This document shows positions 825 to 63,379 of a stretch of DNA of 64,000 nucleotides, piece after piece; position 1 is the first letter of the stretch; the number at the start of each line of letters is the position of its first letter. Below the pieces are notes generated by a model. The model had not been told where the DNA came from. It saw only the letters and a list, made by a program, of their open reading frames with translations, and made no database searches. A program made the position numbers and the translations under genes. This DNA is from Nonlabens spongiae (GTDB lineage: Bacteria; Bacteroidota; Bacteroidia; Flavobacteriales; Flavobacteriaceae). The stretch covers positions 2,136,501 to 2,200,500 of the forward strand of contig NZ_CP019344.1 in NCBI RefSeq assembly GCF_002117125.1, read 5' to 3'.

Positions 825-3800
825 ATGACGATCAACTACGATAAATCAAATAAAATAGTAGGCTGGCTGGTTTTTGCCATAGCCCTAGCCATTTTCTGGA
901 GCACGGTAGAACCTACAACAAGCTACTGGGATGCTGGAGAATACATTGCAACTTCATCGAGTCTGCAAGTAGGACACCCTCCAGGCGCACCACTTTACCA
1001 AATGCTGGGCGCTGCATTCAGCGTTTTTGCATTGGAAAAAAGTGACATCGCTTATACCGTAAACCTTTTATCTGTTTTCTCAAGTGCGTTCACGATTTTA
1101 TTCATGTTCTGGTCGCTCACTTTGCTTCTTAAAAGACACCTTTTAAAAGATCGGGTGGACGATGTAATGATATTGGGATCTGCCGCGATAGGATCGCTCA
1201 CCTTTGCCGTTACAGACAGTTTTTGGTTCAACGCCGTAGAGGCCGAAGTTTACGCCGCTGCAGCCCTGCTCATGAGTTTAATGTTTTATCTAGGTCTCTT
1301 ATGGGAACGCGACATGTTCAAACCACGCGGTAACCGCTGGCTCATTTTGATTTCTTTCATCGTGGGACTCTCCTTTGGGGTACACTTCATGGGAATATTG
1401 ACCATTCCAGCCATAGGACTGCTTTGGTATTTCAAACATTACAAGAAAATTACCCCACTCAATTTCATTGTGGCAAACATAGCCGTGGTCGCGGTGCTGC
1501 TCTTTGTATTTAAGCTTCTGCTACCGTACACCTTGGCGATTTTTGGATATCTGGAAGTGTTTTTTGTCAACCAGATTGGTCTTCCTTTCAACTCAGGTAC
1601 GATCATCGCTTTATTGCTAATTATAGGGTTATTTGTGTTTTTGATCTCGCTTTCGCGAAAGCGTAACAAACCACTACTCAACACCATAACAATCTGCACC
1701 ATGTTTGTGTTAATAGGCTTCTCTTCATGGGTGATGTTACCCATACGTGCCAATGCCGGAACGCCGATCAACGAGAACAATCCTAACGATGCCCGTGCCC
1801 TATTAGCTTATTTCAACAGGGAGCAATACCCGCAACCAGCGCTGTTTTACGGGAAAGCTTTCACAGACATTTATGCAGGTCTCAACCCTGACGACCCGCT
1901 TACAGATGATAATGAATCCTACCGTGATGAAGCGCCCAAATATGAGCGTGATTACGAAAAAGGTAAGTATATCATCGTCAACAATTACAAGGATGCGCTT
2001 CAAAACACGCACGAAGATCACGAGGGCTTTCTCCCCAGAATGACAGATGGCTCCCGCGCTGAAAATTACGTGCGTTTTATGGGTGGTCTGGATTATACGA
2101 TCGACCCAGAAATGGAGACGAATCCTGAGCTGCTAGGCATACTGGACGACTACCAGCGACAGTTTGAGCGTGATCGCATCGAAGCTTCTGAGTACATAGA
2201 AGTATTGAGTTATCTAGAGCAAGAAGGTGCGATTACGATTAATAAACCCTCATTTGCCCAAAACATGCGTTACCTGTTCCAGTACCAGATCAGCTACATG
2301 TATATGAGGTATTTTATGTGGAATTTTGTGGGTAGGCAAAACGACATTCAAGGTGAGTGGGATCGCTATAATGGCAACTGGTTGAGTGGAATCACTCCCG
2401 TAGATTCTATGTTTTTGGGAACTCAAGAAGATCTGAGTGATGACATGCTTAACAATAAAGGTCGCAACACCTACTTTTTCCTACCGCTTATTCTTGGATT
2501 AATAGGCGTACTCTTCCATTTCAAAAAAGATCCTAAATCATTTTACGTTACACTCGTGCTATTTCTATTCACGGGACTCGCGATCATTTTTTACCTGAAT
2601 CAAAGCATGTTCCAGGTACGGGAACGTGATTATGCTTATGTGGGTTCTTTCTTAGTTTTCAGTATGTGGATAGGAATGGGCGTGTATTGGATCTATGAGA
2701 TTTTGAGGGATACGTTTAAAAAGAAGCCCGAGGCGGACGCTTCGACTCCGCTCAGCGACCTAACAGTCCAATCAAGACCAGCACAAATCATAGCACTAGC
2801 CGTTTGTTTTGCTGCTTCACCGCTATTGATGGGATATCAAAACTGGGACGACCACGACCGATCTGAAAAGTATACAGCCCTGGCAAGTGCCAAAAAATAC
2901 TTGGACAGCTGCCTGCCCAACTCGCTCATCTTCACCATAGGAGATAATGATACGTTCCCGCTCTGGTATGCACAAGAAGTAGAAGGCTACCGTACCGATG
3001 TGCGTGTGGTTTGTACCTCGCTCTTGAGCACGGACTGGTACATGGATGATATGAAAAAACAGGCCTGGGACAGCGAGCCTGTTCCTAGCACCATGACGCA
3101 CGACCAGTACACCTACGGAACAAGAGACGCGCTGATTTTCCCTGGTAAGGAAAGACTTCAGGACATTGTAAAAAGAGCTGGATCTAATTATCAGGTTCCA
3201 GACACGGTAGATCTTGAATCTTGGATGAATTGGGTCAAGAGTGAAAAAGAGTTTACTAAAGGTTATTTTGCCAGCAACGGATATCCTGACTACACTTTCC
3301 CTTCTAAGCATATACGTATTCCCGTAGACAAAGAGGCGGTACTTAAAAATGGTGTGGTTGCTCAAAAAGATGCTGATCAGATCGTTGATGAAATCGTAAT
3401 TACCATCAACAGCAGCATCGTTTACAAGAACCGCATGTTTATGCTGGACATCATCAACGCTAACAACTGGGAGCGTCCTATCTACTTTTCGGGAGGTGCT
3501 TTTGGAGATGATGATTACATCTGGATGAAGGATTATTTACAGATGGACGGTTGCGCATACCGTCTTGTTCCTATCAAAACAGAACCAGAAGATCCACGTG
3601 ACCCGTTTGACATGGGTAGGATTGATCCAGAATACAGCTATGATGTAATCATGAACTGGGATTGGGGTAATGGCGGTAGTCCAGATATTTACCATGACAC
3701 CGAGACGCGTCGTAACAGTGTAGGTTACCGAAGTAACATCACCCGAGTCGCTGAAGCCTTGACTAAAATTGGCGAATTCAAAAAAGCTGAAAATCTTCTC

Positions 3801-5473: not shown

Positions 5474-6693
5474 TCATCCCTTCTTCAAAGTAATCACCGT
5501 AATTTCTGGCCAAATACCTGCTCGACCTTTATATCCCAAAAATCCAAAACCTCGATTTACGTTTAGAAAGCGCCCGTATTCCTTATAGATACCAGCCCAT
5601 TTTTTATACACAAACCAGGCTGGACTTAACTTGATAAAACCTGGAATTTCTACGCCAAATTGCATACCGTGTGTATGACCGCTCAAAGTCAAGTGATAAT
5701 TGAGATCGCGTTCCTTCACCTGCAAATCCCAGTGCGTCGGGTCGTGGCTCATCAACACCTTGAAATCCTTTTTAGTTAAACCCTGCGAAGCTTTATCCAA
5801 ATCTCCGTATTTAGGAAAGCGACCGCCCCCCAGTTTTGAACCCCTACGATGGAAATAGAATCGGCACCGCGGGTGATCTTTTCATTCTCATCCAGCAATA
5901 AGCGCCAGCCCATCCCTTTCTGAATGTCAAAAAGTTCTTGAAGGTTGGCTTTTTTGGCGGCTGGAGTTTCCCAACTCACATAGTCTCCATAATCGTGATT
6001 TCCCAAAACAGAAAATACGCCATCGGGAGCTTTCAGCTTCCCAAAAACTTCCTCCCAGCCGTACATCTCACTCGACATATTATTTACCAGATCACCTGTA
6101 AACAGAATCGCGTCACTTTGCTGCTCATTAGCAAGGTTTATGGCATATTCCACCTCTTCTTTATTCTCAAAACTCCCCACATGGATATCACTGAGTTGGG
6201 TGATTTTATAACCGTCAAAGGCTTCTGGTAAATCTGCAAACGTCAGCTCATAACTCCTGACTTGGTAGTTGAATTTCCCGCGCCAGGCTCCGTAGAGAAT
6301 TGCCCCAAAAGGCAGCGCAGCTACCGCAAGACCTACTTTGGCGATGAAAGATCTCCTACCGGGCAAGAATGACTCATCAAGTTCCCGCTTTCGCGAAAGC
6401 GAGATAAAAACACCTTTAATGAACCGGTAAATATCTTCTCCAAACATGAAGAGAAAAAAGACCAGCTTGAGGACAAAAAATGCCAAAAAGAGCGTCACGG
6501 CAAAATCCCTCGCACTAGAAACTGCAGAACGATCTGAGTTAATGGCAAACTGAATGATGAGGTTTGAGATGACCAGAAGCGACACCACTGGATACGCCCA
6601 TTTCCACCAGTGCCCTCGAGACAACACGCGCACCAGTTGAAATGCATAAATCTCCAGTGCCAAAAAGATGACTAAAGCTATAATCCAACGCAT
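5474..6693 (-). pseudogene. Metallophosphoesterase, interrupted by a single-base frameshift
   Basis: Two frames together make one calcineurin-like phosphoesterase of about 405 residues. The upstream part (5776-6693) has N-terminal membrane segments, then LSDIHVGS, FTGDLVNN and LGNHDYGDY metal-binding motifs; it runs out of frame after VGVQNWG. The downstream part (5474-5800) supplies SHDPTHWD and SGHTHGMQFG. On the coding strand the break is in a run of six G (plus-strand C at 5826-5831); seven G would restore W-G-G-G-R-F-P-K-Y-G-D and join the frames. Intact homologues are membrane-anchored YkuE/YaeI-like enzymes cleaving phosphoesters. It may be a recent mutation, a phase-variable tract or a sequencing error. 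The palindrome at 6389-6398 is read as LSRKR after the last membrane segment. Confidence 0.8.
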
Positions 6694-6951: not shown

Positions 6952-9804
6952 GTGACTAACGACGGAACTGACGACAAGAGACTTTTTTTACTGGATGCCT
7001 ATGCGCTGATTTTCAGAGGTTATTACGCCCTGATAAAAAATCCGCGTATTAATAGTAAAGGCATGGATACGAGTGCGATTATGGGCTTTACTAATTCGCT
7101 CTTTGATGTGATACGCCGTGAAAAACCTGAGTACCTCGCCGTTGCTTTTGACAAAGAAGGAAGTGCTGAGCGTACAGAGCTTTATGAAGATTACAAAGCA
7201 AATCGCGACGAGACTCCAGAAGCCATACGCATCGCTATTCCCTACATTCAAAAAATTCTGAAAGCCATGCATATTCCCATCGTGGAGATTGCCGGTGTCG
7301 AGGCAGATGATTTGATAGGGACACTTTCTAAACAAGCCGAGAAGGAAGGCTTTACCGTGTACATGGTCACGCCAGACAAAGATTACGCACAGCTCGTTTC
7401 AGAAAATATTTTCATGTACCGCCCGGCTCGTATGGGTAACGGTATCGAGATTTGGGGAATTCCTGAAGTTCAAAAGCGTTTTGAGGTGGAGCGTCCTGAA
7501 CAGGTAATCGACTATCTGGGAATGATGGGTGACGCGAGCGATAACATTCCTGGTTTACCCGGTGTGGGCGATAAGACGGCCAAAAAATTTCTCAAGCAAT
7601 TTGGCTCCATGGAAGGCTTGCTGGACAATACCGATCAGCTCAAGGGTAAGCTGAAGGAAAAAGTTATCGCCAATGCTGAGCTCGGACGCCTTTCCAAACA
7701 ACTGGCAACTATAAAACTGGATTGCGATGTGCAATTCAATGCTAAAAACTACACCCTGGACGATCCAGATGTGGAACAGGTTCACGAGGTTTTTGACGAA
7801 TTGGAATTCCGACGTGCTAAGGAAACCATGGCAAAAATTTTTGCTCCTGACGGTGTTCCTGGGGTTAATTATAAAGAGGCTTCGAGTGCCTCATCCTCCA
7901 GTTCAAGTTCAGATTCAAATTCAGACGGTCAATTTTCACTTTTTGATACACCGGGATCGGGAACCGCTGCAGAAGCTGATGCTACAGGAAGAAAAACGCT
8001 AGCAACTACAGATCATTTGTATCAAATCGTGGAAGAAGGACTGGGTATGAGCTTGTTCCTCAAAAAACTCATGCAGCAAAAAAGCGTGTGTTTTGATACC
8101 GAGACGACCAGTCTGGATCCACTAGTGGCAGAGCTGGTCGGGATCGCATTTTCATGGGAAGCGGGAAAAGGTTTTTATTTGCCGTTTCCAGAAGAGCGAG
8201 ACAAAGCTCAGGAAATCGTAAATCAGTTGAAACCATTTTTTGAAAGTAACGAGATTGAGAAAATCGGTCAGAATTTGAAGTACGACATCAAGGTCTTGGA
8301 CAAATATGACGTTGAGGTCGCGGCGCCGGCGTTTGACACTATGCTCGCGCACTATCTCATCAATCCAGACATGAGGCACAACATGGACGTGCTTGCGGAG
8401 ACCTACCTCAACTATACACCGCAATCCATAACGGAATTGATCAGTAAGAAAGGTAAGAACCAAAAATCCATGCGCGACGTGGAACTGGAAAAGCAGAAAG
8501 AATATGCGGTGGAGGATGCCGATATCACACTCCAACTCAAACAGTATTTTGTCAAAGAACTCGACTCTGCCGGAACTAACAAGCTCTTTACCGAGATCGA
8601 GATGCCACTAGTTCAGGTGCTGGCAGATATGGAAATAGAGGGTATCAATCTGGATGAGGATTATCTGGGTACGCTTTCGCGAAAGCTAACAGAAGACATC
8701 GCTCAACTAGAAGAAAATATTTATAAAGAAGCCGGCGAGGAGTTCAACATAGGATCGCCGAAGCAGCTGGGAGAAATTTTGTTCGGTAAGTTGAAGCTGG
8801 TGGACAAGCCTAAAAAAACCAAGACCGGTCAATATTCTACCGCTGAGGATGTGTTGAGTTATCTGGCTGCTAACCATCAAATCATCGCTGATGTTCTCGA
8901 ATACCGCGGACTGACAAAATTGCAATCGACTTATGTGGATGCTCTGCCCAATCAGGTGAATCCAAAGACGCAGCGTATTCATACCAATTATATGCAAACG
9001 GTGGCGGCGACAGGCCGCTTGAGCTCAACCGATCCCAATTTGCAAAACATCCCGATACGTACCGAGCGCGGGAGACAAGTGCGTAATGCCTTCATCCCTC
9101 GCGATGAAAACTACACCTTAATGGCTGCCGATTACAGCCAGATTGAGTTGCGTATAATCGCTGCATTAAGCGAGGAAGAAAACATGATCGCTGCCTTTAA
9201 AAATGGCGAGGACATTCACGCTTCTACCGCTGCACGCGTTTTTAATGTAGACATAGAGAAAGTGACCCGAGAGCAGCGTAGCAATGCCAAAACGGTGAAC
9301 TTTGGGATCATTTATGGGGTTAGTGCTTTTGGACTGAGCAATCAAACCGATCTGGATCGCAGCGAGGCCAAAGAACTGATCGACACCTATTATAAAACCT
9401 ACCCAAAACTGCGCGCCTACATGGACGACCAAGTGGCTTTCGCGCGTGAGAATGGTTATGTAGAAACGGTTTTGGGAAGGCGTCGCTATTTAAAAGACAT
9501 CAATTCATCTAACAATGTCGTGCGAGGCGCAGCCGAGCGCAACGCTGTCAACGCTCCCATTCAAGGGAGCGCGGCCGATATCATCAAAATCGCGATGATT
9601 AACATTCACGAAAAGTTCAAAGAATTGAACTGCAAGTCAAAAATGTTGCTGCAGGTTCATGATGAATTGGTTTTTGACATCCACAATGATGAGCTGGAAG
9701 ACATGAAAAAACTGATCCAAGACGAGATGCAAAATGCTTATAAATTAAGTGTGCCGCTTGATGTGGAAGTAGGCGTAGGGATGAACTGGTTAGAGGCGCA
9801 TTGA
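6952..9804 (+). CDS. polA: DNA polymerase I
   Basis: 950 residues from a GTG start. Three domains are visible: a 5'-3' exonuclease (residues 8-290, with AGVEADDLIGT, PDKDYAQLV and GDASDNIPGLPGVGDKTA), a 3'-5' exonuclease that keeps its first acidic motif FDTETTSLD and later DADITLQ, and the polymerase with TGRLSSTDPNLQNIP, AADYSQIELR, RSNAKTVNFGIIYG and the QVHDELVFD motif C. It fills gaps in repair and removes Okazaki primers. A serine-rich linker (about residues 305-325) joins the first two domains. The palindrome at 8675-8684 is read as LSRKL. The 3' end of this gene is echoed twice downstream (9914-9972 and 10451-10573). Confidence 0.97.
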   Translation: MTNDGTDDKRLFLLDAYALIFRGYYALIKNPRINSKGMDTSAIMGFTNSLFDVIRREKPEYLAVAFDKEGSAERTELYEDYKANRDETPEAIRIAIPYIQKILKAMHIPIVEIAGVEADDLIGTLSKQAEKEGFTVYMVTPDKDYAQLVSENIFMYRPARMGNGIEIWGIPEVQKRFEVERPEQVIDYLGMMGDASDNIPGLPGVGDKTAKKFLKQFGSMEGLLDNTDQLKGKLKEKVIANAELGRLSKQLATIKLDCDVQFNAKNYTLDDPDVEQVHEVFDELEFRRAKETMAKIFAPDGVPGVNYKEASSASSSSSSSDSNSDGQFSLFDTPGSGTAAEADATGRKTLATTDHLYQIVEEGLGMSLFLKKLMQQKSVCFDTETTSLDPLVAELVGIAFSWEAGKGFYLPFPEERDKAQEIVNQLKPFFESNEIEKIGQNLKYDIKVLDKYDVEVAAPAFDTMLAHYLINPDMRHNMDVLAETYLNYTPQSITELISKKGKNQKSMRDVELEKQKEYAVEDADITLQLKQYFVKELDSAGTNKLFTEIEMPLVQVLADMEIEGINLDEDYLGTLSRKLTEDIAQLEENIYKEAGEEFNIGSPKQLGEILFGKLKLVDKPKKTKTGQYSTAEDVLSYLAANHQIIADVLEYRGLTKLQSTYVDALPNQVNPKTQRIHTNYMQTVAATGRLSSTDPNLQNIPIRTERGRQVRNAFIPRDENYTLMAADYSQIELRIIAALSEEENMIAAFKNGEDIHASTAARVFNVDIEKVTREQRSNAKTVNFGIIYGVSAFGLSNQTDLDRSEAKELIDTYYKTYPKLRAYMDDQVAFARENGYVETVLGRRRYLKDINSSNNVVRGAAERNAVNAPIQGSAADIIKIAMINIHEKFKELNCKSKMLLQVHDELVFDIHNDELEDMKKLIQDEMQNAYKLSVPLDVEVGVGMNWLEAH

Positions 9805-9815
9805 GTTAGTTTTCG

Positions 9816-9850
9816 GTTGTCAGTTGTCAGTTGTCAGTTGTCAGTTGTCA
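9816..9850. repeat. Five tandem copies of GTTGTCA
   Basis: Five exact 7-bp units begin 12 bases after the polA stop. A 7-bp array of this kind is prone to slippage and could vary between strains. No reading frame crosses it. Confidence 0.9.
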
Positions 9851-9880
9851 GTAAGGAAGTTTATCAATTTCTACTTATCT

Positions 9881-10450: not shown

Positions 10451-10573
10451 CAAAATCGCAAATTAGATGACATGAAAAAACTGATCCAAGATGGGATGCC
10501 ATACGCCTACAAAATGGAAGTGCCGCTGGATGTGTAAGTAGGAGTGGGTCAGAACTGGTTAGAGGTGCATTAG
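10451..10573 (+). pseudogene. Decayed copy B of the polA 3' end
   Basis: Translation in the polA register gives DMKKLIQDGMPYAYKMEV, PLDV, a stop, then VGVGQNWLEVH and a stop, against the real DMKKLIQDEMQNAYKLSV, PLDVEVGVGMNWLEAH. The match covers about 40 codons up to and including the stop, with about a dozen amino-acid changes and one nonsense codon. The divergence suggests an old copy or one from a related species. Together with copy A it brackets the gene at 10060. The rest of 10375-10704 shows no gene. Confidence 0.85.
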
Positions 10574-13246: not shown

Positions 13247-13270
13247 GATCTCGCTTTCGCGAAAGCGAGA
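13247..13270. repeat. Intergenic copy of the TTTCGCGAAA palindrome
   Basis: Core at 13255-13264, with a 22-bp perfect palindrome TCTCGCTTTCGCGAAAGCGA plus GA. It lies between the type B T9SS gene stop and the GH16 gene start, one of only two intergenic full copies in the window. Confidence 0.9.
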
Positions 13271-15370: not shown

Positions 15371-16434
15371 AAATGGCGGTCGATAGTATTTAAAAATTGA
15401 TCCAAGTCTTCAGTTGTATTGTAGTAATGAAATCCCACTCTTATACCATCTCCTCTTTTACAGCACAAAATTTTCACGGCAAGTAAGTCTTGCAGCACCT
15501 CATCACTCAGCTTCAGATTAAAGATAGAAGAATGAACATCTCTTCCTAGAACCTCACTAGCAATTAAATTGCGTGAAGCAAACGCTGTTTTTGCTTGACT
15601 GGAAATCTTGTTTATAGCAATGCTTATTTTATGGATCCCATAAGAATCAATAAGTTCTATAGCTTTACGCAAAGCTCCAAAAGAAACCGAATCAAGATGC
15701 CCGGGTTCAAAATAACCAATAAAACTGCCTCGTTGGTTTCTTATTTCTGATATTTCTATGTGAGGAAAATATTCACTTAGCCTAGCGACTGTTTCTTCTT
15801 TGAAACACATAAATGCGTTACCATTCCCAGCGTGCATCCACTTGTAACAGCTGGCGGCTAGGATGTCTATTCCGCTTTCGCGAAAGCGGAATTCTTCAAC
15901 ACCTAGATATTGAGTGGCATCTGCAATGATTATAACATCAGGAAAGCTTGCTTTGAGATCTTTAAGAAAATCCAGATCGATTTTCATTCCTGAAATGTAT
16001 TGTACGATGGAAAGGCACAGAAAATCGGGCTCGTGTTTTTTCACTGCATCCCAAATTTGATGCTCCAGATCAGCGCAGAGCGGCACATAACTTGTCGGAA
16101 AGCCCATCGAAATCACGGGATAATTGATCGAGGGGTAATCTCCATCAATCAACAAAAACCTTTTAGATCGCGGCAATTTTTCTAGCAACGCATTAAATGC
16201 TAGTGAAAAATTGGGTGTGAGCGCGGTGAATTGATAGTCTGAATCTAAGAAGTGAGCGACTGTCCTGCGTACCTCTTCCAGAAAGTCACCTCTTTTGCGC
16301 ATCATAAACAGAGGGTCACTTGCCAACTGATTTGCGAAACAAGTTTTGTAATCTTTGAGTTCTTGAGATATAAGCCCTTGTTCAGGCGTGTTGAGGTAAA
16401 CAAAATCTTCTAAAACAGGAAAAGTGAGAGTCAT
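15367..16434 (-). CDS. Aminotransferase class V-fold PLP-dependent enzyme
   Basis: 355 residues of fold-type I PLP enzyme. ADATQYLG (Asp172 and Gln175 contact the cofactor) and SCYKWMHAGNG (Lys198, Schiff base) are clear. It resembles kynureninase/isopenicillin epimerase-like and SufS-like proteins, but the exact substrate cannot be read from sequence. The palindrome at 15876-15885, here a 24-bp perfect palindrome counting flanks, encodes RFRES at residues 183-187, just ahead of the conserved SGIDILAAS strand. The gene overlaps the type B T9SS gene by ATGA, so the two are probably co-transcribed, although their functions seem unrelated. Confidence 0.85.
   Translation of the reverse strand: MTLTFPVLEDFVYLNTPEQGLISQELKDYKTCFANQLASDPLFMMRKRGDFLEEVRRTVAHFLDSDYQFTALTPNFSLAFNALLEKLPRSKRFLLIDGDYPSINYPVISMGFPTSYVPLCADLEHQIWDAVKKHEPDFLCLSIVQYISGMKIDLDFLKDLKASFPDVIIIADATQYLGVEEFRFRESGIDILAASCYKWMHAGNGNAFMCFKEETVARLSEYFPHIEISEIRNQRGSFIGYFEPGHLDSVSFGALRKAIELIDSYGIHKISIAINKISSQAKTAFASRNLIASEVLGRDVHSSIFNLKLSDEVLQDLLAVKILCCKRGDGIRVGFHYYNTTEDLDQFLNTIDRHL
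15869..15892. repeat. 24-bp perfect palindrome, longest member of the TTTCGCGAAA family
   Basis: ATTCCGCTTTCGCGAAAGCG plus GAAT reads the same on both strands. It lies wholly inside the PLP enzyme coding sequence, encoding part of EEFRFRESGI on the minus strand. Confidence 0.9.
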
Positions 16435-18336: not shown

Positions 18337-18877
18337 GTTCTTTTATTGTATTGATCTTGTGAAATAGGTCGTAAGTCACTATCCCAGCACAGACTGATAT
18401 ATTCAGACTGTGCTTAGTTCCATATTGTTCTAGTTCAATGACACGGTCACTGGCGTTTACGACATCCTGTTGCACGCCTTGAACTTCGTTTCCTAGAACT
18501 ACAGCTATTTTAGACCCTCTTTCAGGATTAAAAGAATGTAAGCTGGTCGAGTTTTCAGCTTGCTCGATGGCGCAAACTTCATAACCGTTTTTTTTCAAAT
18601 TTCTGATCGCCTCGCTGGTGTCCTCAAAATATTCCCAGGAAACTGTTTCTGTAGCACCTAGAGCCGTTTTTCTAATTTCCCGATGTGGTGGTTGTGCAGT
18701 TATACCGCACAAAACAACTTTGTCGACCCTATAGCAATCTGCCGTGCGGAAAACGGATCCCACATTATTCAAACTACGTACATTATCCAAAACGATGACA
18801 AGGGGAGTTTTTTCGCTTTCGCGAAATTCCTTATCAGACAACCGGTCTAACTCATCATTCCTCGTTTTTCTATTCAT
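18326..18877 (-). CDS. SpoU/TrmH family RNA 2'-O-methyltransferase
   Basis: About 183 residues from the ATG at 18877. A TTG 21 bases upstream is in frame but lies in a terminator hairpin, so I reject it. SPOUT motifs are intact: LDNVRSLNNVGSVFRTAD (motif 1), VLGNEVQGV (motif 2) and YGTKHSLNISVCAGI (motif 3). Such enzymes methylate a ribose 2'-OH in rRNA or tRNA using S-adenosylmethionine and a trefoil-knot fold. There is no separate N-terminal RNA-binding domain, as in TrmL/TrmH-like short forms. The partial palindrome at 18817-18826 is read as EFRES. Target nucleotide unknown. Confidence 0.88.
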   Translation of the reverse strand: MNRKTRNDELDRLSDKEFRESEKTPLVIVLDNVRSLNNVGSVFRTADCYRVDKVVLCGITAQPPHREIRKTALGATETVSWEYFEDTSEAIRNLKKNGYEVCAIEQAENSTSLHSFNPERGSKIAVVLGNEVQGVQQDVVNASDRVIELEQYGTKHSLNISVCAGIVTYDLFHKINTIKELKH

Positions 18878-21320: not shown

Positions 21321-21342
21321 AATTCCGCTTTCGCGAAAGCGA
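21321..21342. repeat. Intergenic copy of the TTTCGCGAAA palindrome
   Basis: Core 21329-21338 in the 138-bp gap after the NifU-like gene and upstream of the cyoE promoter. It lacks a T-run. Confidence 0.85.
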
Positions 21343-26479: not shown

Positions 26480-26707
26480 ATGAAAAAGCTATTTTGTTTT
26501 TTATTGCTGGTAATTTTTTCCGCTTTCGCGAAAGCGCAATGTGCCATGTGCCGCGCCGTCATAGAGAGCAGTGGAGACAACGCAACTGCTGAAGGTCTCA
26601 ACAACGGTATCACCTATCTTATGGCATTTCCTTATATCATCGTAGGCGGAATCATCTACATGATCTACCGAAGCACGCAAAAACCAGCAAAAGAGGTTAC
26701 TGAGTAG
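26480..26707 (+). CDS. Small membrane protein with signal peptide and CxxC
   Basis: 75 residues. The signal peptide ends with SAFAKA-Q, and those codons are exactly the palindrome at 26524-26533. The mature part starts QCAMCRAVIESS (C-x2-C) and ends with one membrane helix (LMAFPYIIVGGIIYMIYRS) and a short charged tail. It follows the DUF420 gene by 60 bp, so a role in oxidase assembly or redox is plausible; I know of similar small proteins at this place in flavobacteria but not their function. Confidence 0.75.
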   Translation: MKKLFCFLLLVIFSAFAKAQCAMCRAVIESSGDNATAEGLNNGITYLMAFPYIIVGGIIYMIYRSTQKPAKEVTE

Positions 26708-39599: not shown

Positions 39600-40406
39600 T
39601 TATTTGGTCGCATATAAAATAGGTCTTGATGGCACCGCATCATTTTCTATAGGCGCCAGCTGTAGATCCATCACATAAATGCCGTCCTCGACTTCTTCGG
39701 GCACGTAAACCAGCTCCGTGATGGTAGCGTCCAGACGCTGGTCTCCAGAATAATCCCAAAATGCCTTATGGGCCAATAGTTTACCATCGTCCTTCTCTTT
39801 GTCTACGCTGGGAAGGTCTATGAGAAGATGATGTATTCCGCTTTCGCGAAAGCGTAACGCCACCTCCTCCAGCAAATACGGCGGATTTGTATTTGAGTAA
39901 TTGCGACTCAATTTTTCATCGCCATTGGGCAACGTGCGTATGATCACCGCCTGAACGCCATTTTCAAGCTCAGCTATCAAATCATTTGAAATGATCAAGT
40001 CATCACCTCTTTGTTCAGGCTGCACCGTGATCAATTGAGCTTTAAAAAAAGTACCAGATTTGAGCACATCGTGAACGCTGTGAAATTCCTCAGTTATGTG
40101 CCCAATGCACTCGGTATGCGTCCCATGGCTGTGCGGGTTAAAAAACACGTCATTAAAATTAGTCGAGCCACCTAGAGCGACTTTACCCACGTAACCGTCT
40201 ACTTCAACGTGTGTGATTTTGGGCTGGTCTATGTACCACGCTCCCACTCCAGCATCGTGCTGAATGGTCGTACTGATGTCGATGGGTGCTGATAAATTTA
40301 TATTCAGAGACTCATCGCCTAGTTGCAAAGACGTTTTCATAGGTTCATTATTACAGGAGATCATGCTTATTGTGGCAAGTATCAATATCAGATTTCTGGT
40401 ATTCAA
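39600..40406 (-). CDS. Cyclase/kynurenine formamidase-family lipoprotein
   Basis: About 268 residues if started at the TTG at 40406, which gives a lipoprotein signal (NLILILATISMISC-N). ATG at 40340 would remove the signal. The frame continues open upstream to 40502 but without a sensible start. The domain has the metal-dependent cyclase motif HSHGTHTECIGH (after FFNPHSHGTH) and HLLIDLPSVD. Members hydrolyse N-formylkynurenine or open cyclic amides; the substrate here is unknown. The palindrome at 39842-39851 is read as RFRES ahead of GIHHLLID. Confidence 0.8.
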   Translation of the reverse strand: MNTRNLILILATISMISCNNEPMKTSLQLGDESLNINLSAPIDISTTIQHDAGVGAWYIDQPKITHVEVDGYVGKVALGGSTNFNDVFFNPHSHGTHTECIGHITEEFHSVHDVLKSGTFFKAQLITVQPEQRGDDLIISNDLIAELENGVQAVIIRTLPNGDEKLSRNYSNTNPPYLLEEVALRFRESGIHHLLIDLPSVDKEKDDGKLLAHKAFWDYSGDQRLDATITELVYVPEEVEDGIYVMDLQLAPIENDAVPSRPILYATK

Positions 40407-42189: not shown

Positions 42190-42253
42190 AGGCTCTCTGG
42201 TCAATGAGCATCTCGACTCCGCTCGATGACCACGGAGCCGAAATGCCCAGAGA
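42190..42253. repeat. Imperfect hairpin with TCTCGACTCCGCTCGATGA
   Basis: Arms CTCTCTGG...GCATCTCGACTCCG and CGGAGCCGAAATGCCCAGAGAG pair with a 7-base bulge. It occupies the gap between the first SGNH stop and the likely start of the second SGNH gene. It resembles the elements at 2741 and 44741. Confidence 0.6.
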
Positions 42254-46896: not shown

Positions 46897-48489
46897 ATGG
46901 TAGAAATGGTTGCACAAAAAGATTTACGCTTTCGCGAAAGCGTAACAAATCACTATCCCGAACTCTTGAACCCTCAGGCTCAAAAATTTCTGGTAGCGCT
47001 TCATAAAAAGTTCAACGGCGAGCGTCTTAGATTGTTAAACAACCGAAAGAAACAGCAAGAATATTTTGATGCAGGTAATTTCCCATCATTCCCGGCAGAG
47101 ACTCAAGCAATAAGAAATGGAAACTGGACGGCTGCAACCACGCCAAATGATCTTCAGGACCGTAGAGTAGAAATCACAGGTCCTGTGGATCGTAAAATGG
47201 TAATCAATGCGCTTAACTCTGGCGCAAGAGCCTTCATGGCCGATTTTGAAGATAGTAATGCTCCCACTTGGGATAATTGCATGCAGGGTCAGATCAATTT
47301 ACGAGATGCTAATTTGGGCACCATAAGACTCGAGGATGAGCGTAGAGGCAAAATTTATGAACTCAACAAGAAAACTGCCGTATTACTCGTAAGACCTAGA
47401 GGCTTACATCTAGATGAGGCTAATCTTGAGATCAATGGAACTAGCGCTAGTGGGAGTTTATTTGATTTTGGACTTTATGCCTTTCACAATACTAAAACAT
47501 TGATGGAAAAGGGCTCAGCTCCCTATTTCTACCTACCCAAACTAGAGCACTATCTAGAAGCTAGATGGTGGAATGAGATTTTCACATTTACCGAAAAGTT
47601 CTTGTCCATACCTCATGGCACACTTAAGGCAACTGTATTAATTGAAACAATAACCGCTAGTTTTCAACTGGACGAGATCATTTATGAATTGCGCGATCAT
47701 ATCGTGGGACTCAATTGTGGACGCTGGGACTATATTTTTTCTTACATCAAAAAATTCCGTAACCATCATGATTTTGTAGTGCCCAATCGCGATCAAGTGA
47801 CCATGACCAGTCCATTTATGGATGCTTATTCCAGGCTAGTCATCCAAAATTGTCACAAACGAGGAATTCATGCGATAGGCGGTATGGCTGCACAAATACC
47901 TATCAAAAATGACGAGCAGGCTAATAAAAATGCTTTTGAAAAAGTCAGATTAGATAAGGAACGTGAGGTGATGAATGGGCATGATGGAACCTGGGTAGCC
48001 CATCCTGCGCTGGTACAGGTTGCTCTCAATGAATTTGATAAGCACATGCCCAACCCAAACCAAAAAGAAATAACAAGAGAGCAAGACGTGATCACAGAAT
48101 CAGATCTTGTTGCACTCCCAGAAGGAACAATAACTGAAGATGGGGTGCGTAAAAATATTAATGTAGGCATCCTTTATCTTGAAGCTTGGTTGAGAGGTTA
48201 CGGTGCAGTAGCTCTATACAACCTCATGGAAGACGCAGCAACCGCAGAAATATCCAGGACTCAATTATGGCAATGGTTGCATAATCGAGTCAGGCTGGAA
48301 GATGGCAGAATATTCTCAACAGATCTTTATCAATCATTGTTTGATGATGAGCTGGAATCTATCAAGAAAATTTCTTTTTACCAGAGTTCAGAAAGCCGTA
48401 TCGAGCTAGCGAGCAGGCTGTTTGATGAAATGATCCGTTCTCAAGAATTTGAAGAATTCCTAACGCTCAAAGCACAACCTTATCTATAA
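46897..48489 (+). CDS. aceB: Malate synthase (A type)
   Basis: 530 residues, the length of malate synthase A. ALNSGARAFMADFEDSNAPTW, LLVRPRGLHLDE, the block VLIETITASFQLDEIIYELRDH and LNCGRWDYIFSYIKK are characteristic, and GHDGTWVAHPAL comes late. It condenses glyoxylate with acetyl-CoA to malate in the cytoplasm. The N-terminal palindrome (46930-46939) is read as RFRES (11-15). Isocitrate lyase follows 75 bp downstream, past a hairpin, so both enzymes of the shunt are together under the divergent regulator. Confidence 0.96.
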   Translation: MVEMVAQKDLRFRESVTNHYPELLNPQAQKFLVALHKKFNGERLRLLNNRKKQQEYFDAGNFPSFPAETQAIRNGNWTAATTPNDLQDRRVEITGPVDRKMVINALNSGARAFMADFEDSNAPTWDNCMQGQINLRDANLGTIRLEDERRGKIYELNKKTAVLLVRPRGLHLDEANLEINGTSASGSLFDFGLYAFHNTKTLMEKGSAPYFYLPKLEHYLEARWWNEIFTFTEKFLSIPHGTLKATVLIETITASFQLDEIIYELRDHIVGLNCGRWDYIFSYIKKFRNHHDFVVPNRDQVTMTSPFMDAYSRLVIQNCHKRGIHAIGGMAAQIPIKNDEQANKNAFEKVRLDKEREVMNGHDGTWVAHPALVQVALNEFDKHMPNPNQKEITREQDVITESDLVALPEGTITEDGVRKNINVGILYLEAWLRGYGAVALYNLMEDAATAEISRTQLWQWLHNRVRLEDGRIFSTDLYQSLFDDELESIKKISFYQSSESRIELASRLFDEMIRSQEFEEFLTLKAQPYL

Positions 48490-51584: not shown

Positions 51585-52946
51585 ATGATCAAAAACCTCA
51601 TCCTACTTTCCTCGCTACTGCTTACCGCACCCCTTTTTGCGCAAGAAGAGGTCGCTGAGCAGGAGGTTAATGTGGATGATTTGGGTAATGTAAACGACGA
51701 GTTTAAGGAGACTTTCTTCAATGCATTGGCTGAGAAAGGCAAGCAAAACCACGATCGTGCCATCACCCTACTTGAGCGCTGCCTGGAGTTGCAGCCGTCA
51801 AATGCTGCGGTTTTGTTTGAATTGGGTAAGAATCATTTGAGTAATAACGCTTTCGCGAAAGCGGAAGATTACCTTCTACGTGCCATAGACAGCAAAGGAG
51901 AAAACGAGTGGCTGCTCGACACCTTGCTTGAGGTCTATCAAGAAAACAACGATCAGGATAAGGCGCTGGAAACGCTCAAAAAACTCGTCGCGATCAACGA
52001 GAATTATGAAGAACTCCTACCCTTGCAATACATTAAAACCGGCCAGCCTGACAAGGCACTGGAGGTACTGGAAGGTTTGGATAAACGCATAGGAGAAAGT
52101 GCAAATAGGAATTTACTTAAACGCCAGCTGCGATCCCAATTTCCCGGCAAAGAACCTATTCTGGATGAGCAGGCGCTTCTTGATCAAATCGAGCAACAAC
52201 CAGAAAACGAAGAGGCTTATATAAAGCTGATCTATCTCTACGGGAAGCAGAATGAAAGCGACAAAATGTTGCAAATCGCTGCGCAAATGGAAGAAAATCT
52301 ACCGCAAAGCGACAAGGCACAACTGGCGCTCTATAAAATTTATTTTGACCAGGGAATGGTTGAAAATGGCATGGAGAGCATGCAACGCATATTTGAGTCA
52401 GACGAGTTTGATCTAGAGACAAAAATCAAGGTGCTCAACGACTTCATCCAAGTTGAAAACGTGGACGCGACAGACAGCTCACTGCTTGAAAAAGCAATCA
52501 CTAATTTTTCTGCCGAGGTGGATGACACACAGGCTATGAAGGTTTTGGGAGATTATTACTTAAAACGCAAAGATCCCAGCAACGCTATCGCCTTTTACGA
52601 AAAAGGATTAGAAACTAATCCTGACGATTACGACCTGATCAAGAACGTCGCCTTGTTATCCATAGATTTAAAGGATTATGATCGTGTAGAAAACCTTACT
52701 TCCAGCGCTCTGGAGCTTTATCCTGCTCAACCTTTACTTTATCTGCTCAATGCGATTGCACAAAATCATCTTGAGAATTATGATGACGCGATCATGCAAT
52801 TGGAAATGGGCTTGAGCTACCTCATAGACGAGCCTAAAATGGAGCAAGATATCTACCAGCAACTCGCCAGAGCCTACGAGAAAAAGGGCAACACAACTAA
52901 AGCCGCAGAAATGCGTTCTAAAGCAGAGGCACTCAGCAAAACATGA
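51585..52946 (+). CDS. Secreted tetratricopeptide repeat protein
   Basis: 453 residues with a signal peptide ending TAPLFAQ. At least eight TPR-like helices pairs follow (for example AVLFELGKNHLSNNAFAKAEDYLLRAI, DKALETLKKLVAINENYEELLPL, AIAFYEKGLETNPDDYDLIKN, AIAQNHLENYDDAIMQLEMGL). TPRs mediate protein contacts; location is periplasm or outer membrane. The palindrome at 51851-51860 is read as AFAKA inside one TPR helix, with no change of repeat length. Its stop overlaps the DUF4292 start by four bases. Confidence 0.88.
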   Translation: MIKNLILLSSLLLTAPLFAQEEVAEQEVNVDDLGNVNDEFKETFFNALAEKGKQNHDRAITLLERCLELQPSNAAVLFELGKNHLSNNAFAKAEDYLLRAIDSKGENEWLLDTLLEVYQENNDQDKALETLKKLVAINENYEELLPLQYIKTGQPDKALEVLEGLDKRIGESANRNLLKRQLRSQFPGKEPILDEQALLDQIEQQPENEEAYIKLIYLYGKQNESDKMLQIAAQMEENLPQSDKAQLALYKIYFDQGMVENGMESMQRIFESDEFDLETKIKVLNDFIQVENVDATDSSLLEKAITNFSAEVDDTQAMKVLGDYYLKRKDPSNAIAFYEKGLETNPDDYDLIKNVALLSIDLKDYDRVENLTSSALELYPAQPLLYLLNAIAQNHLENYDDAIMQLEMGLSYLIDEPKMEQDIYQQLARAYEKKGNTTKAAEMRSKAEALSKT

Positions 52947-53701: not shown

Positions 53702-54910
53702 ATGAAAAAAGCTGCGTTGTTTATCGGACTGATTTTGATGGTTTCCGCTTTCGCGAAAGCGCAGACCCGAGCAAGCCTCGAGAAAAGAAAAGCTGAAATA
53801 CAGTCCGAAATCAATCAATTCTCACAACTGCTGAAAACCGTAAAAAAAGAGGAAGCCACGATGCAGTTGCGTGTGGAAACCACGAAGAAAAAGATCGCCA
53901 GCACTCAAGAAATCATCAATATCACTAACAAGCAGGCTAATCTAATCACGCGCAGTATTAATGAGAACAAAGCGCAGATCAAAAAACTAGACGAAGAGGT
54001 CAAGGAACTCAAGGCTGATTATGCTGAGATGGTGGTTAAGTCCTATAAACGCAACAATGAGCGCAGCCGGCTTATGTTCCTGCTGAGTTCAGAAAACTTT
54101 CTCCAAGCCTACAAGCGCATTCAGTATCTCAAGTCTTATGCAGATTATCGTAAGAAGCAAGCAACTGAAATCAAGGAAAAATCTGACTTGCTGGTTGAGA
54201 AAAACAAGCAGCTAGACGAGGAGCGCAAAGAAAAAGAAACGATTCTTGCTGCCAATAAAAAGCAAAGGGAAGAGCTCAAAGAGGACAAGAAAGAACAAGA
54301 AGCATTACTTGCTCAAGTGCGTGAGAACGAGTCCAATTATGTAGCCAGCATTGAGAAAAAAGCAAAAGAACGCGCTGATATAGACCGAGAAATCAAAAAG
54401 CTGATTGAAGCCGATATCGCGAGGTCTAATAAAGGAAAATCCACGACCACCGCAAAAGCGACAAAATTCTTCCTCTCACCTGAAGCAAAAGCACTTGCGG
54501 CAAACTTTAAAGGGAATCGCGGTAAACTCCCTTGGCCTGTGGAGCGAGGTTTTATAAGCATGCGCTATGGAACGCAGCCCAGCCCTATCGTCCCTCAGGT
54601 TAAAATCAAATCCAACGGCTTGAGGTTTCAAACTCCTGAAGGCGCAAAAGTGCGTGCCGTTTTTGATGGCGAGGTGGTTCATGTATTGAGAAACAAATAT
54701 GGAATCCTTTCCATTCATGTGCGACACGGTAACTACACCAGCATCTACAATAACCTGAAATCAGCCACGGTGAGTAAAGGTGATAAAGTGTCCACCAGCG
54801 ACACACTAGGAGAAGTCTTTACCGATCGCTCTGGCGTGACTGAACTCCAGTTTGTTTTACTAGAAGAAAGCCAGACGCTGGATCCAGCACGATGGATTTT
54901 GAAAGGGTAA
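53702..54910 (+). CDS. EnvC-like murein hydrolase activator with degenerate LytM domain
   Basis: 402 residues. The signal peptide ends VSAFAKA-Q, where AFAKA is encoded by the palindrome at 53749-53758. A long coiled coil (about 20-240) follows, then a LytM/M23 domain (about 280-402: GKLPWPVERGFISMRYG, GAKVRAVFDGEVVHVLRNKYG, HVRHGNYTSIYNNL, GDKVSTSDTLGEV). The zinc ligands expected in active M23 peptidases are replaced (LRFQ at the first and TELQFVLLEE at the HxH site), so it should activate amidases rather than cut. It likely works in cell division or peptidoglycan remodelling in the periplasm. Confidence 0.9.
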   Translation: MKKAALFIGLILMVSAFAKAQTRASLEKRKAEIQSEINQFSQLLKTVKKEEATMQLRVETTKKKIASTQEIINITNKQANLITRSINENKAQIKKLDEEVKELKADYAEMVVKSYKRNNERSRLMFLLSSENFLQAYKRIQYLKSYADYRKKQATEIKEKSDLLVEKNKQLDEERKEKETILAANKKQREELKEDKKEQEALLAQVRENESNYVASIEKKAKERADIDREIKKLIEADIARSNKGKSTTTAKATKFFLSPEAKALAANFKGNRGKLPWPVERGFISMRYGTQPSPIVPQVKIKSNGLRFQTPEGAKVRAVFDGEVVHVLRNKYGILSIHVRHGNYTSIYNNLKSATVSKGDKVSTSDTLGEVFTDRSGVTELQFVLLEESQTLDPARWILKG

Positions 54911-55988: not shown

Positions 55989-56256
55989 CAGGTTGAAAAT
56001 TTTTGCAAAGGTAGAACGGTAAAAAAAGTCTTAAAAACTATTGGCAAAACATTGATAAGATAGCTTGCTATATCGATAGAGCTATAATATTTGAAGAGAA
56101 ATCTTATGTGGTACGCTTTTGCGAAAGCGTAATAATTTAAAGACTTATTCAAAACTTCTAGCACTGAGAAGCAAATCAAAACATGAATATCTAGGTAAAT
56201 AGCCGTAGCCCTTAGCTCCTACTTTATTGTATTTTTGAAAATCAATCTACCGTTGT

Positions 56257-60559: not shown

Positions 60560-60566
60560 GATCAGG

Positions 60567-62111
60567 TTATTTCAGTTTCAGCACCATGCCGGGCTGTAGG
60601 TCTTTTGATTTTTGCGGATTCAATTTCTTCAAGTTCGCAATACTTGTGCCATAAGCTTGTGAGATCTTCCAGAGGCTATCTCCTGTTTTTACGGTATGCG
60701 ACGTGGCATCATCAGATTTTTTGATGGTTTGAGTTGCCACGGGCTTTCTGGGATGAATGTATAACCGCTGACCTATTCTCAAATTATTGCTGCGCAACCC
60801 ATTCCATCGCTTGATCTGACTCACGCGCACTCCGTACTTTCGGGCTATTTTGCCCAGGTAATCACCCTTCCGCACGGTGTAGCGCACGCGGTCTGGCGCT
60901 TTGAGTAGCTCTGGTAGTGGTTTTTCCCTTTTTTCAAATTGCGCTTTCGCGAAAGCGTAAACACTATCCTCATTGCTTACAAATCGGCCGGCAGCATACA
61001 ACGGCAATCGTAAATTATAGTTTTTACCCTTGATCACCGGAATGATGTCCAATTTGTAGCTGGGATTGTGGAACTGGATGACTTCCAGATCCTCATCAGT
61101 AAACTGGGCAACATGCTCCAAGGTAATCATTTGCTTCACGCGTATGGTATCTGTTGCAATACTTTTAACCGTGGGACGCGCAGGCTGGAAACCGTGTTCC
61201 TTAGCATATTTAAAAAGATACATGATCGACTGGAATGCAGGTACGTAGCCCGCTGTTTCACGCGGCAAATAAGGCCGCAAATTCCAGTAATTCTTATAAC
61301 CGCCGCTGCGACGTATAGCTTTGTTCACATTTCCCGGCCCTGAGTTGTAGGCAGCAAGAGCAAGATCCCAGTCGCCGTAGATGTTATACAGACTGCGTAA
61401 ATATTTACAGGCGGCCTCTGTCGCTTTGAGGGGATCCATGCGCTCGTCAACATAGCTGTTGACCTCCAGCCCATAATTGCGACCCGTGGTAAACATAAAT
61501 TGCCAGAGGCCGGTGGCACCTACCCTGCTTTTAATACGTGGATCCAAGGCACTTTCTACCACCGCAAGGTATTTCATCTCAAGGGGTATGTCATACTTAT
61601 CCAGATATTCCTCAAACATGGGAAAGTAGTAGTCGCTCAGCGTCATCAATCGCTCCAGATAAACTCGCTGATAGCCCAGTTTTTTATTGATCAGCTTCTC
61701 CAGAATAGGATTGTAATCGATTTGGAAAGGCGTTTCTGCATTAATTTGTTTCAATCTTGCTTTGAGCGTATCGGTAGGCAGTTTTTGAGTAACTATCTCG
61801 CTATAATCCATCTGCACGATTTCGTCGTGCATATAGTCGTACAGATCATTGTTGTAAAGCTCCGTGAGAAAATTTTCCTCATAAGCATCTACCTCGGGAT
61901 AGGTGAAGCGTTTCCACGAGAGACTATCCACCACAAGTGAGTCTATTTCTGTTTTGAGAACGGGAAGTTCTCCACCCTGAGAATCTGTCGTGATATCGAG
62001 AACAGTATTCTCTTGCTGCTCAACCTGAACCGTATCTTGTTGTACTTGTGAAAAAACAACCGCACTAGCCCAAAGAGCAAGTGCGGCTGGAATCCATTTC
62101 TTTATTTTCAA
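60567..62111 (-). CDS. Lytic murein transglycosylase with LysM domains (MltD-like)
   Basis: 514 residues with a signal peptide ending SAVVFSQ. The catalytic domain has VVESALDPRIKSRVGATGLWQFM (Glu186) and AAYNSGPGNVNKAI. Two LysM domains lie in the C-terminal third (YTVRKGDYLGKIARKYGVRVSQI and HTVKTGDSLWKISQAYGTSIANL). It cleaves the glycan strand of peptidoglycan to 1,6-anhydro ends. The palindrome at 60945-60954 is read as AFAKA (about 386) in the linker between the domains. Confidence 0.93.
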   Translation of the reverse strand: MKIKKWIPAALALWASAVVFSQVQQDTVQVEQQENTVLDITTDSQGGELPVLKTEIDSLVVDSLSWKRFTYPEVDAYEENFLTELYNNDLYDYMHDEIVQMDYSEIVTQKLPTDTLKARLKQINAETPFQIDYNPILEKLINKKLGYQRVYLERLMTLSDYYFPMFEEYLDKYDIPLEMKYLAVVESALDPRIKSRVGATGLWQFMFTTGRNYGLEVNSYVDERMDPLKATEAACKYLRSLYNIYGDWDLALAAYNSGPGNVNKAIRRSGGYKNYWNLRPYLPRETAGYVPAFQSIMYLFKYAKEHGFQPARPTVKSIATDTIRVKQMITLEHVAQFTDEDLEVIQFHNPSYKLDIIPVIKGKNYNLRLPLYAAGRFVSNEDSVYAFAKAQFEKREKPLPELLKAPDRVRYTVRKGDYLGKIARKYGVRVSQIKRWNGLRSNNLRIGQRLYIHPRKPVATQTIKKSDDATSHTVKTGDSLWKISQAYGTSIANLKKLNPQKSKDLQPGMVLKLK

Positions 62112-62194
62112 ATCTTGTTTTTTCTGTATCGATTTATAAGTTTTAAGTGGCTACAATATTTGAACCAATTTCACTATCTCTTGCTGCAATAATA

Positions 62195-63379
62195 TTACTC
62201 GCCTTTAATCGCAGCAATCCCTGGCAGCGTCTTTCCTTCCAGCATTTCCAGCATGGCACCGCCACCGGTTGACACGTAGCTTACTTGATCGTCAAAACCA
62301 AATTGCTTCACCGCCGCAACAGAATCACCACCTCCCACTAGGGAAAAAGCTCCATTTTCAGTAGCCTTTGCAACGGAACGACCCAAGGCCTTAGTACCCT
62401 CAGCAAATTTTTCCATTTCAAATACTCCCGCAGGACCATTCCATAATATCGTTTTTGCACCGAGCAGAACACGGTCAAAATTGTCTCGCGACTTCTCGCC
62501 TATATCCAGTCCCATCCAGCCTTCAGGAATATTGTTTATCGGTGCTTTGTCAATCGTTGCCTGTTCTGAAAACGCGTTTGCCGTTACGACATCTACTGGC
62601 AGGTGGATTGCGGTATTGGTCTCTTTTGCCTTTTCTAGAATTTCTAGTGCCAGATCTTGTTTGTCATCTTCTACTAAGGAATCACCCACCTGGCCTCCTA
62701 GCGCCTTGATGAACGTGTAGGCCATACCGCCGGCAATGATCAAATCATCTACCTTTTCAAGAATATTCTCGATCACGGTAATTTTTGAAGACACTTTTGC
62801 ACCACCCAATATCGCTACGAGTGGTCGCTCGGGAGTTTCCATGACTTTTTCAAGGCTGCTGATTTCCTTTTCCATGAGCTTCCCAAAACATTTCTGCTCG
62901 AAGTATTCTGCGATGATCGCCGTGCTGGCGTGAGCCCTATGTGCGGTCCCAAATGCGTCGTTGATGTACACGTCGCCTAGTTGAGATAACGCTTTCGCGA
63001 AAGCGTGGTCACCAGCAGTCTCCTCACTATGGTAACGCAGATTCTCTAATAAAAGAACCTCACCCGGCTGAAGGTTATCAGCGGCCTGTTGCGCTATTTC
63101 ACCCGTACATTCAGAACAAAACTTGACCTCAACACCTAGAATATCACTTGCGGTAGACACCACATGCTGAAGGGAAAACTCTTGCTCTTTATTTTCAGGT
63201 CTTCCCAAGTGTGACATTAAGATGACAGCTCCACCATGCTCCAAAACGTGAATAATGGTATCTTTTGCAGCTTTGATACGCGTGATATCAGTCACTTCTT
63301 GCTGTTCATTTAACGGCACGTTGAAGTCAACTCTTATCAAAGCTTTTTTACCTTCAAAATTTATATTTTCTAGCGTCAT
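62195..63379 (-). CDS. pgk: Phosphoglycerate kinase
   Basis: 394 residues. RVDFNVPLN, SHLGRPE, INDAFGTAHRAHAST, GGAKVSSKI, WNGPAGVFE and GGGDSVAA are all conserved. It makes ATP from 1,3-bisphosphoglycerate in glycolysis. The palindrome at 62993-63002 is read as AFAKA (about 126-130), just ahead of LSQLGDVYINDAFG; the length of this region is normal, so the site seems to have arisen by substitution. Confidence 0.97.
   Translation of the reverse strand: MTLENINFEGKKALIRVDFNVPLNEQQEVTDITRIKAAKDTIIHVLEHGGAVILMSHLGRPENKEQEFSLQHVVSTASDILGVEVKFCSECTGEIAQQAADNLQPGEVLLLENLRYHSEETAGDHAFAKALSQLGDVYINDAFGTAHRAHASTAIIAEYFEQKCFGKLMEKEISSLEKVMETPERPLVAILGGAKVSSKITVIENILEKVDDLIIAGGMAYTFIKALGGQVGDSLVEDDKQDLALEILEKAKETNTAIHLPVDVVTANAFSEQATIDKAPINNIPEGWMGLDIGEKSRDNFDRVLLGAKTILWNGPAGVFEMEKFAEGTKALGRSVAKATENGAFSLVGGGDSVAAVKQFGFDDQVSYVSTGGGAMLEMLEGKTLPGIAAIKGE

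Follow-up and report, generated by a model that had tools for sequence, protein, structure and literature searches.

The described sequences closest in kind to the element reported here are the DNA uptake sequences (DUS) of Neisseria and the uptake signal sequences (USS) of the Pasteurellaceae, the HIP1 palindrome of cyanobacteria, the Chi sites of recombination, and the parS, Noc, MatP and SlmA sites, which are palindromic protein-binding sites. Neisserial uptake sequences are reported to be 97% identical, compared with about 85%, with an excess in the core genome and none in genes of recent acquisition (PMC2397512, in extract), and the mismatch behaviour of uptake sequences is the subject of PMC1939737 (in extract). 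HIP sequences are marked by a matching DNA methyltransferase, and the function of HIP1 is described as still open in the accessible portion of the same source (Elhai, PMC4390886). The element examined here is a dispersed palindrome, with the core TTTCGCGAAA and the full 14-mer GCTTTCGCGAAAGC, in a 64,000-nucleotide stretch of the Nonlabens spongiae genome (NZ_CP019344.1, positions 2,136,501 to 2,200,500; 'the window' hereafter). It resembles DUS and USS in its short exact core, hundreds of copies, conservation far above the surroundings and weaker arms; unlike them it is symmetric, about four times sparser than USS, avoids convergent gene gaps, has arms that avoid G rather than A/T tracts, and belongs to a different phylum. 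With HIP1 and the alternate HIPs it shares the form of a highly iterated GC-rich palindrome, genome-wide and lineage-wide, and it differs from them in its length (14–16 bp compared with 5–8 bp), few one-mismatch copies, G-avoiding arms and the lack of a constant methyltransferase among the two families searched. As at Chi, a GT-rich strand leads into the site, which is however palindromic and much longer than Chi, and RecC is absent from all 49 genomes subjected to profile searches (21 of the 23 Nonlabens and 28 others). It is palindromic like the parS group, and unlike that group has hundreds of chromosome-wide sites and no constant extra ParB. Hundreds of exact 14-letter palindromes in Nonlabens and Dokdonia, kept for their DNA and distributed over genes and intergenic gaps, look like an identity tag read by a protein, perhaps for the exchange or repair of the organisms' own DNA.

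All 19 cores listed in a preliminary description of the window were recovered at their positions in a scan of the sequence. The chance expectation at a G+C content of 41.4% is 0.12 copies (maximum 1 in 100 dinucleotide shuffles), close to the value of about 0.1 given there, and 17 of the 19 cores carry the full 14-mer, again as described. A search allowing up to two mismatches added one-mismatch copies at 37734–37747 and 56115–56128. When genes are taken as the open reading frames (ORFs) accepted in this analysis, 16 of the 19 cores are genic and those at 13255, 21329 and 26524 are intergenic; the statement that most lie in coding sequence thus holds, and its count of 17 does not. The genic cores are read in three frames, as had been noted, with the four FRES and six LSRK readings unchanged and the AFAK readings reduced from seven to six; the core at 42100 also lies in an overlapping ORF. 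The copies are as follows, in window coordinates and with no strand assigned to any of them.

1649–1662, palindrome in a TMEM260-like gene (PF11028), LSRK frame
6387–6400, palindrome in a calcineurin-like phosphoesterase gene (PF00149), LSRK
8673–8686, palindrome in polA, LSRK
13253–13266, palindrome, intergenic
15874–15887, palindrome in a class-V aminotransferase gene (PF00266), FRES
18815–18828, core with two outer mismatches in a SpoU methylase gene (PF00588), FRES
21327–21340, palindrome, intergenic
26522–26535, palindrome, intergenic
31373–31386, palindrome early in an outer membrane efflux gene (PF02321), AFAKA
36597–36610, palindrome in a MutS domain V gene (PF00488), LSRK
37734–37747, one-mismatch copy
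39840–39853, palindrome in a cyclase gene (PF04199), FRES
40990–41003, palindrome in a GDSL-like gene (PF13472), LSRK
42098–42111, core with one outer mismatch at the end of the same GDSL-like gene (PF13472), AFAKV; a second ORF overlaps
44218–44231, palindrome in an MBOAT gene (PF03062), LSRK
46928–46941, palindrome close to the start of a malate synthase gene, FRES
46909–46960, example of the whole element (palindrome with both G-avoiding arms, about ±26 nt)
51849–51862, palindrome in a TPR gene; core in the same alignment column in 14 of 21 Nonlabens
53747–53760, palindrome at the beginning of an M23 peptidase gene (PF01551), in a signal-peptide-like segment; 12 of 21 Nonlabens have the core in this alignment column
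56115–56128, one-mismatch copy between ORFs accepted as genes
60943–60956, palindrome in a LysM/SLT transglycosylase gene, AFAKA
62991–63004, palindrome in pgk, AFAKA

The abundance extends to the whole genome. The two contigs (3,393,235 bp) hold 779 full 14-mers, about one per 4.4 kb, and no copy of the reversed control, a count far from the near-chance value that would have spoken against the preliminary description. Every one of the 23 Nonlabens genomes examined carries 288–857 copies, and 385–905 copies occur in ten Dokdonia records among the matches listed, a sample reached through motif matches and biased accordingly toward carriers. The metagenome-assembled genomes SAT149 and SAT51 (G330) have 369 and 89. 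Only five of 299 genomes of the family exceed 19 copies, namely three Nonlabens (G000, the window's own genome, G009 and G207), G161 (408) and Dokdonia sinensis (G175, 857); G245 has 19, G067 has 16 and the remaining 292 have nine or fewer, with any copy at all in 71 of the 299. Across 394 genomes of the phylum 22 have a match, and the window's own genome alone has more than six. The intermediate counts of SAT51, G067 and G245 could reflect bins of mixed origin, DNA received by transfer, or a signal at an early or late stage of being gained. In two related Nonlabens phages, together 70,700 bp, the palindrome is missing; at the host density about 16 copies would be expected. The second contig of the genome (13,959 bp, L354), on which efflux-like, AAA ATPase-like and tyrosine-recombinase-like ORFs were named by eye, bears two palindromes; it may be no plasmid but a stretch of the chromosome left unplaced in the assembly.

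In a tree of six syntenic proteins (1786 columns) the site-rich genomes form two groups, Nonlabens and Dokdonia with G161 (support 1.00), and site-poor genera are joined to the second of these (1.00); SAT149 groups with Dokdonia in a tree of one protein with more taxa (0.99). The trait may have passed between Nonlabens and the Dokdonia side, or it may be of older origin with repeated losses.

How copies come and go was examined in codon alignments of eight genes, three of them with sites (six site columns). The palindrome replaces codons without a change of length at four of the six columns and with a one-codon difference at the other two, and orthologues in site-poor genera have unrelated DNA at these columns, which bears out the view that it is not simply an inserted repeat. 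Two columns are shared by 14 and 12 of the 21 Nonlabens although the proteins concerned are only 43–66% identical to the window's copies. Across 652 ordered site comparisons the states are bimodal: sites are intact in 49% of cases at 60–70% background identity, against 0.2% expected, and in 70% at 70–75%, against 1.1%, percentages that are upper bounds since local alignment favours similar stretches. Near-copies are scarce: the 904 kb surveyed from Nonlabens, G161 and Dokdonia contain 221 perfect and 23 one-mismatch sites; the mismatch lies at the outermost pair in seven of the 23, and at two inner pairs in seven and five. The conservation of sites together with the small number of one-mismatch copies indicates that the copies are under strong purifying selection or are subject to biased replacement. 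A repeat at the level of protein is ruled out by the three reading frames and the intergenic copies, which also support the placing of the signal at DNA level in the preliminary description. An insertion element was rejected on the codon alignments, where replacement is seen. Many identical copies in one genome would suit a mobile or inserted palindromic repeat of the REP/RAYT or Rickettsia type; we consider this explanation very improbable indeed, as it is opposed by the columns of unchanged or one-codon-altered length, by the unrelated DNA in site-poor orthologues and by arms that differ between copies. The palindrome is selected or otherwise maintained at the DNA level and is gained mostly by replacement in place.

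The placement of copies was assessed in 464 kb of the same genome. Of 114 copies there, 83 lie in called genes and 31 are intergenic (27%, compared with 10% of random positions); convergent gene gaps hold two of these 31, where 18% would be expected at random, and the first 35 codons of genes are enriched (21 copies against 9.2 expected). Intrinsic terminators were considered and rejected: convergent gaps are avoided, and the outgoing strand is A/C-rich instead of carrying a T run. Short distances between copies are depleted. Gaps below 1 kb number five of 211 in the window's own genome (about 45 expected), five of 93 in Nonlabens G299 (18 expected), and none of 21 and none of 29 in two Dokdonia (3.9 expected in each); the depletion is present in all six samples, and the overall coefficient of variation falls below random in five of the six. 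Density is similar in two chromosome stretches, with 100 sites in 15–431 kb and 97 in 1.7–2.1 Mb, which speaks against a mark of the origin or terminus. Among the six largest gaps of a 400-kb stretch, three contain integrase, restriction or transposase-like genes, and the others an 11-kb giant ORF, enolase-, rpoA- and secY-like genes, and ClpX- and trigger-factor-like genes, all of these names having been given by eye. The largest palindrome-free gap (17.7 kb; L302–L321 joined, about 189–207 kb) is mostly taken up by an open frame of 3711 codons whose start resembles a signal peptide.

The palindrome is the centre of a longer element. Position 8 is G on 93% of outgoing strands in the window's own genome, 91% in other Nonlabens and 79% in Dokdonia, which extends the palindrome to CGCTTTCGCGAAAGCG. 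Beyond it lie arms, strong to about ±26 nt, which are a statistical property of the sites and have no fixed sequence. In 228 flanks G makes up 8.8% at +12 to +26, compared with 20.6% at +60 to +119. At third codon positions G is 1–9% near sites, compared with 20–23% far from them. A is raised at +10/+11, +14, +17 and +20 of the outgoing strand. At intergenic sites (246 flanks) the mean share of A is 53% on the triplet positions and 38% elsewhere, so codon structure is not the cause of the triplet phase; frame classes 0 and 2 share the phase (A 50% against 34–42%), some sites in the arm analysis being orthologous between species and hence not independent. Each strand reads GT-rich arm, palindrome, AC-rich arm. 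The two arms of one site match little above composition (40% against 31% at +9, and equal at most positions), and single-strand DNA folding of four sites gave z-scores from −3.2 to −0.2; an extended hairpin was rejected. The symmetric arms, the depletion of short gaps and the two-clade distribution are additions to what the preliminary description contained.

A role like that of Chi, or in the loading of RecA, suits these arms better than an uptake role. Under such an account the palindrome would be an orientation-independent recombination or repair signal at which an AddAB-type helicase-nuclease stops, RecA then loading on the GT-rich strand running in. The roughly 18 nt 5' of the palindrome are G+T-rich and C-poor on both strands, and T (A on the other strand) is favoured at every third base in intergenic sites and two of the three frame classes; an excerpt of PMC3763553 has RecA grouping bases in threes and forming filaments most stable on TGG and least stable on CCA repeats. 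The same excerpt puts thousands of bases of TGG pattern near Chi, a pattern which titles cited there ascribe to codon usage, whereas the arms here are short. The triplet phase is missing from the third frame class, and RecC (PF04257) was found in none of the 49 genomes, AddB not having been searched. The overall density, about one per 4.4 kb, and the lack of copies in the two related phages would both suit a Chi-like signal, E. coli Chi being of similar density. Known Chi sites are nevertheless short and asymmetric, and an exact 14–16 bp far exceeds anything that, to our knowledge, Chi-reading enzymes read. We regard this explanation as rather unlikely.

The data call for a trans-acting reader. 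ParB (PF02195) is present in all 49 genomes, and no extra copy is constant in the site-rich ones. The methyltransferase family PF01555 is absent from nine of 21 Nonlabens, all seven Dokdonia and SAT149, with one member in G161, and PF00145 is absent from nine of 21 Nonlabens, four of seven Dokdonia, SAT149 and G161; both are lacking in three of the 21 Nonlabens (G207, G307 and G308) and in G319, G321, G322, G328 and SAT149. No constant methyltransferase was therefore found in these two families, other methyltransferase families not having been searched. Of PF01555, PF00145, an extra ParB and RecC, none followed the distribution of the palindrome.

These searches bear on two further explanations. 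The first, that the palindrome is made or kept by a DNA methyltransferase together with methyl-directed mismatch repair, follows from the likeness to HIP1 drawn in the preliminary description, of which the dispersed, highly iterated palindrome stands and a matching methyltransferase, with two families tested, has so far not been recovered. HIP1, like most copies here, lies mostly inside genes. In extracts of Elhai (PMC4390886) it is likewise a highly iterated palindrome at saturating density. The inconstancy of both families, with G207, G307 and G308 possessing neither, and the one-mismatch copies, not confined to the outermost pair (7/23), make such an origin improbable. We also know of no methyltransferase that reads 14 bp. 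In the second, an abundant nucleoid or chromosome-organising protein, acting as a dimer and found in both lineages, would bind the palindrome, and the perfect dyad with its symmetric arms would suit a homodimer contacting about 50 bp, as would the similar density in the two chromosome stretches. This account names no protein, ParB being universal and without a constant extra copy, and the site-specific organisers described so far bind tens rather than hundreds of sites; we think it unlikely. The Chi-like signal and the dimeric nucleoid protein are both serious rivals to an uptake tag.

Some copies lie in DNA that seems to have moved between genera. Pairs of palindromes 933 bp apart occur in several site-poor Flavobacteriaceae; in Aquimarina the pair falls within an outer-membrane efflux gene (PF02321), after which come genes for an AraC-type regulator and a multicopper oxidase, and related efflux stretches are found in other hosts at 64–99.99% identity. 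The segment of efflux and multicopper oxidase genes with the 933-bp pair recurs in L041, L337, L340, L344, L345 and L353. G183 and Aquimarina G334 share 20 kb at 99.97–99.99%, and G136, which belongs to a genus other than that of G183, carries four sites with identical spacings. Island copies have G-avoiding arms of the same type (28 sites, partly of common descent). The palindromes in these metal-related islands seem, from their sequence, to be in DNA exported from site-rich lineages; that transferred islands carry them at all sits beside the expectation that uptake sequences are rare in acquired DNA. In 17 island stretches there are 42 perfect and 10 one-mismatch copies, a ratio that permits no conclusion on decay in site-poor hosts since the stretches were selected by their perfect copies and are partly related by descent. 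Between the two site-rich lineages themselves, the flippase gene of Dokdonia is nested inside Nonlabens (0.957), with 68% identity compared with 50% for the next genus and the core in the same column.

We favour the interpretation that the palindrome is a dispersed self-DNA tag working like a DNA uptake sequence and kept through transformation and recombination, and assign it a probability of roughly 0.38. A dimeric protein or receptor common to Nonlabens and the Dokdonia side would read the 14–16 bp core in either orientation, and fragments bearing the tag would preferentially enter the cell, or preferentially be processed for homologous recombination. Tagged alleles would then displace untagged ones, so that a copy would be gained and kept about every 4 kb, wherever the encoded protein allows, and would be rare in foreign DNA. 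The arms may ease strand opening or the loading of a filament protein with a three-nucleotide step, such as RecA. An uptake or recombination drive, selfish or selected, best explains the approximately 800 kept sites, their spread, the two phages without copies and the presence of one word in two lineages. The uptake model is supported by the genome-wide copies, their conservation above the surroundings, the depletion of short gaps, the phages without copies and ComEC in 49 of 49 genomes, as well as by the three largest gaps over mobile or restriction genes, the flippase nesting and competence in Riemerella. In that genus natural transformation with unusual machinery is proven (PMC8459023, in extract), and a further source on competence in the family is PMC6533540 (in extract).

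A number of observations weigh against the uptake tag. Known uptake sequences are not palindromes, and they often serve as terminators in convergent gaps, which are avoided here. An uptake-sequence model does not predict GT-rich triplet arms, frame class 1 lacks the triplet phase (a point equally against a Chi-like signal), and G at +8 is less frequent in G161 (four sites) and SAT149 (three sites), numbers too small to judge the arms. ComEC, the sole competence gene searched, is present in site-poor genomes too and so does not discriminate, and it shows no affinity between Nonlabens and Dokdonia; no gene beside comEC particular to site-rich genomes was seen in 20 stretches, the window's own genome being rearranged there. 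Exchange between the two lineages is hinted at by only one of the six syntenic genes, the dut tree being poorly supported either way. The six-protein tree is midpoint-rooted and would also suit an ancestral trait with several losses, and the selection of Dokdonia by motif matches means that a motif-free Dokdonia would have been missed. In G299 the spacing as a whole is no more regular than chance would give (P 0.25), short gaps still being depleted, and two of the six largest gaps, including that with the enolase-, rpoA- and secY-like genes, hold ordinary conserved genes. At least 120 stretches of a viral collection contain the 14-mer, most with one copy each. Identity adjoining the sites is not below that further off, unlike the effect described for DUS in the extract of PMC2397512. 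The palindrome is sparser than the Haemophilus uptake sequences, which occur at about one per kb (PMC7811141, in extract). For Nonlabens and Dokdonia competence is nowhere described in the literature covered, but the only search aimed at it listed 12 of 1,296 matches, none of them naming either genus; competence is also not family-wide, Flavobacterium johnsoniae not being competent under the conditions used in the accessible part of PMC7965970.

Three other features of the window were noted, and no known RNA family reached the gathering score in it. The 3' end of polA appears duplicated or replaced by an insertion: its last 106 bp or so (9697–9802) are repeated with 80% identity at 10466–10571, 769 bp downstream and with an in-frame stop, and a 7-bp tandem repeat (GTCAGTT) lies between, at 9805–9853. 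The phosphoesterase gene at 5474–6693 on the minus strand is split into two overlapping frames (5776–6693 and 5474–5800), a frameshift, real or a sequencing error, with the 6387 palindrome in the first part. A second short repeat family of about 19 bp, TCGACTCCGCTCAGCGACC-like, occurs at 2742–2760, 42213–42231 and 44742–44760 with 84–100% likeness; a narrower pattern for it had no match in the 400-kb stretch of the same genome.

In the literature searched, with most subscription papers outside its scope, the 12-, 14- and 16-mers were not found in one piece, the best 40 of 199 matches reaching no further than the 10- and 8-mer. Titles and abstract openings on Dokdonia and Nonlabens palindromes, among the matches listed, describe no such repeat, nor do those on Bacteroidetes palindromes, uptake sequences and transformation. 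That some 800 copies of a 14–16 bp palindrome are maintained speaks strongly for a sequence-reading system, seemingly undescribed, and the occurrence of relatives with and without the palindrome in one family makes comparison possible. Tentatively, the palindrome may represent another, independent family of DNA uptake sequences, and perhaps the first such family from the Bacteroidota, with a palindromic word readable both ways, triplet arms seeding RecA, and two gene-exchanging lineages sharing it. If so, it would be a new solution to the recognition of self-DNA. As an uptake or recombination tag the palindrome would matter for the movement of genes between Nonlabens and Dokdonia, and would provide a sequence marker of DNA from such hosts, as it seems to do in the metal-related islands of other Flavobacteriaceae.

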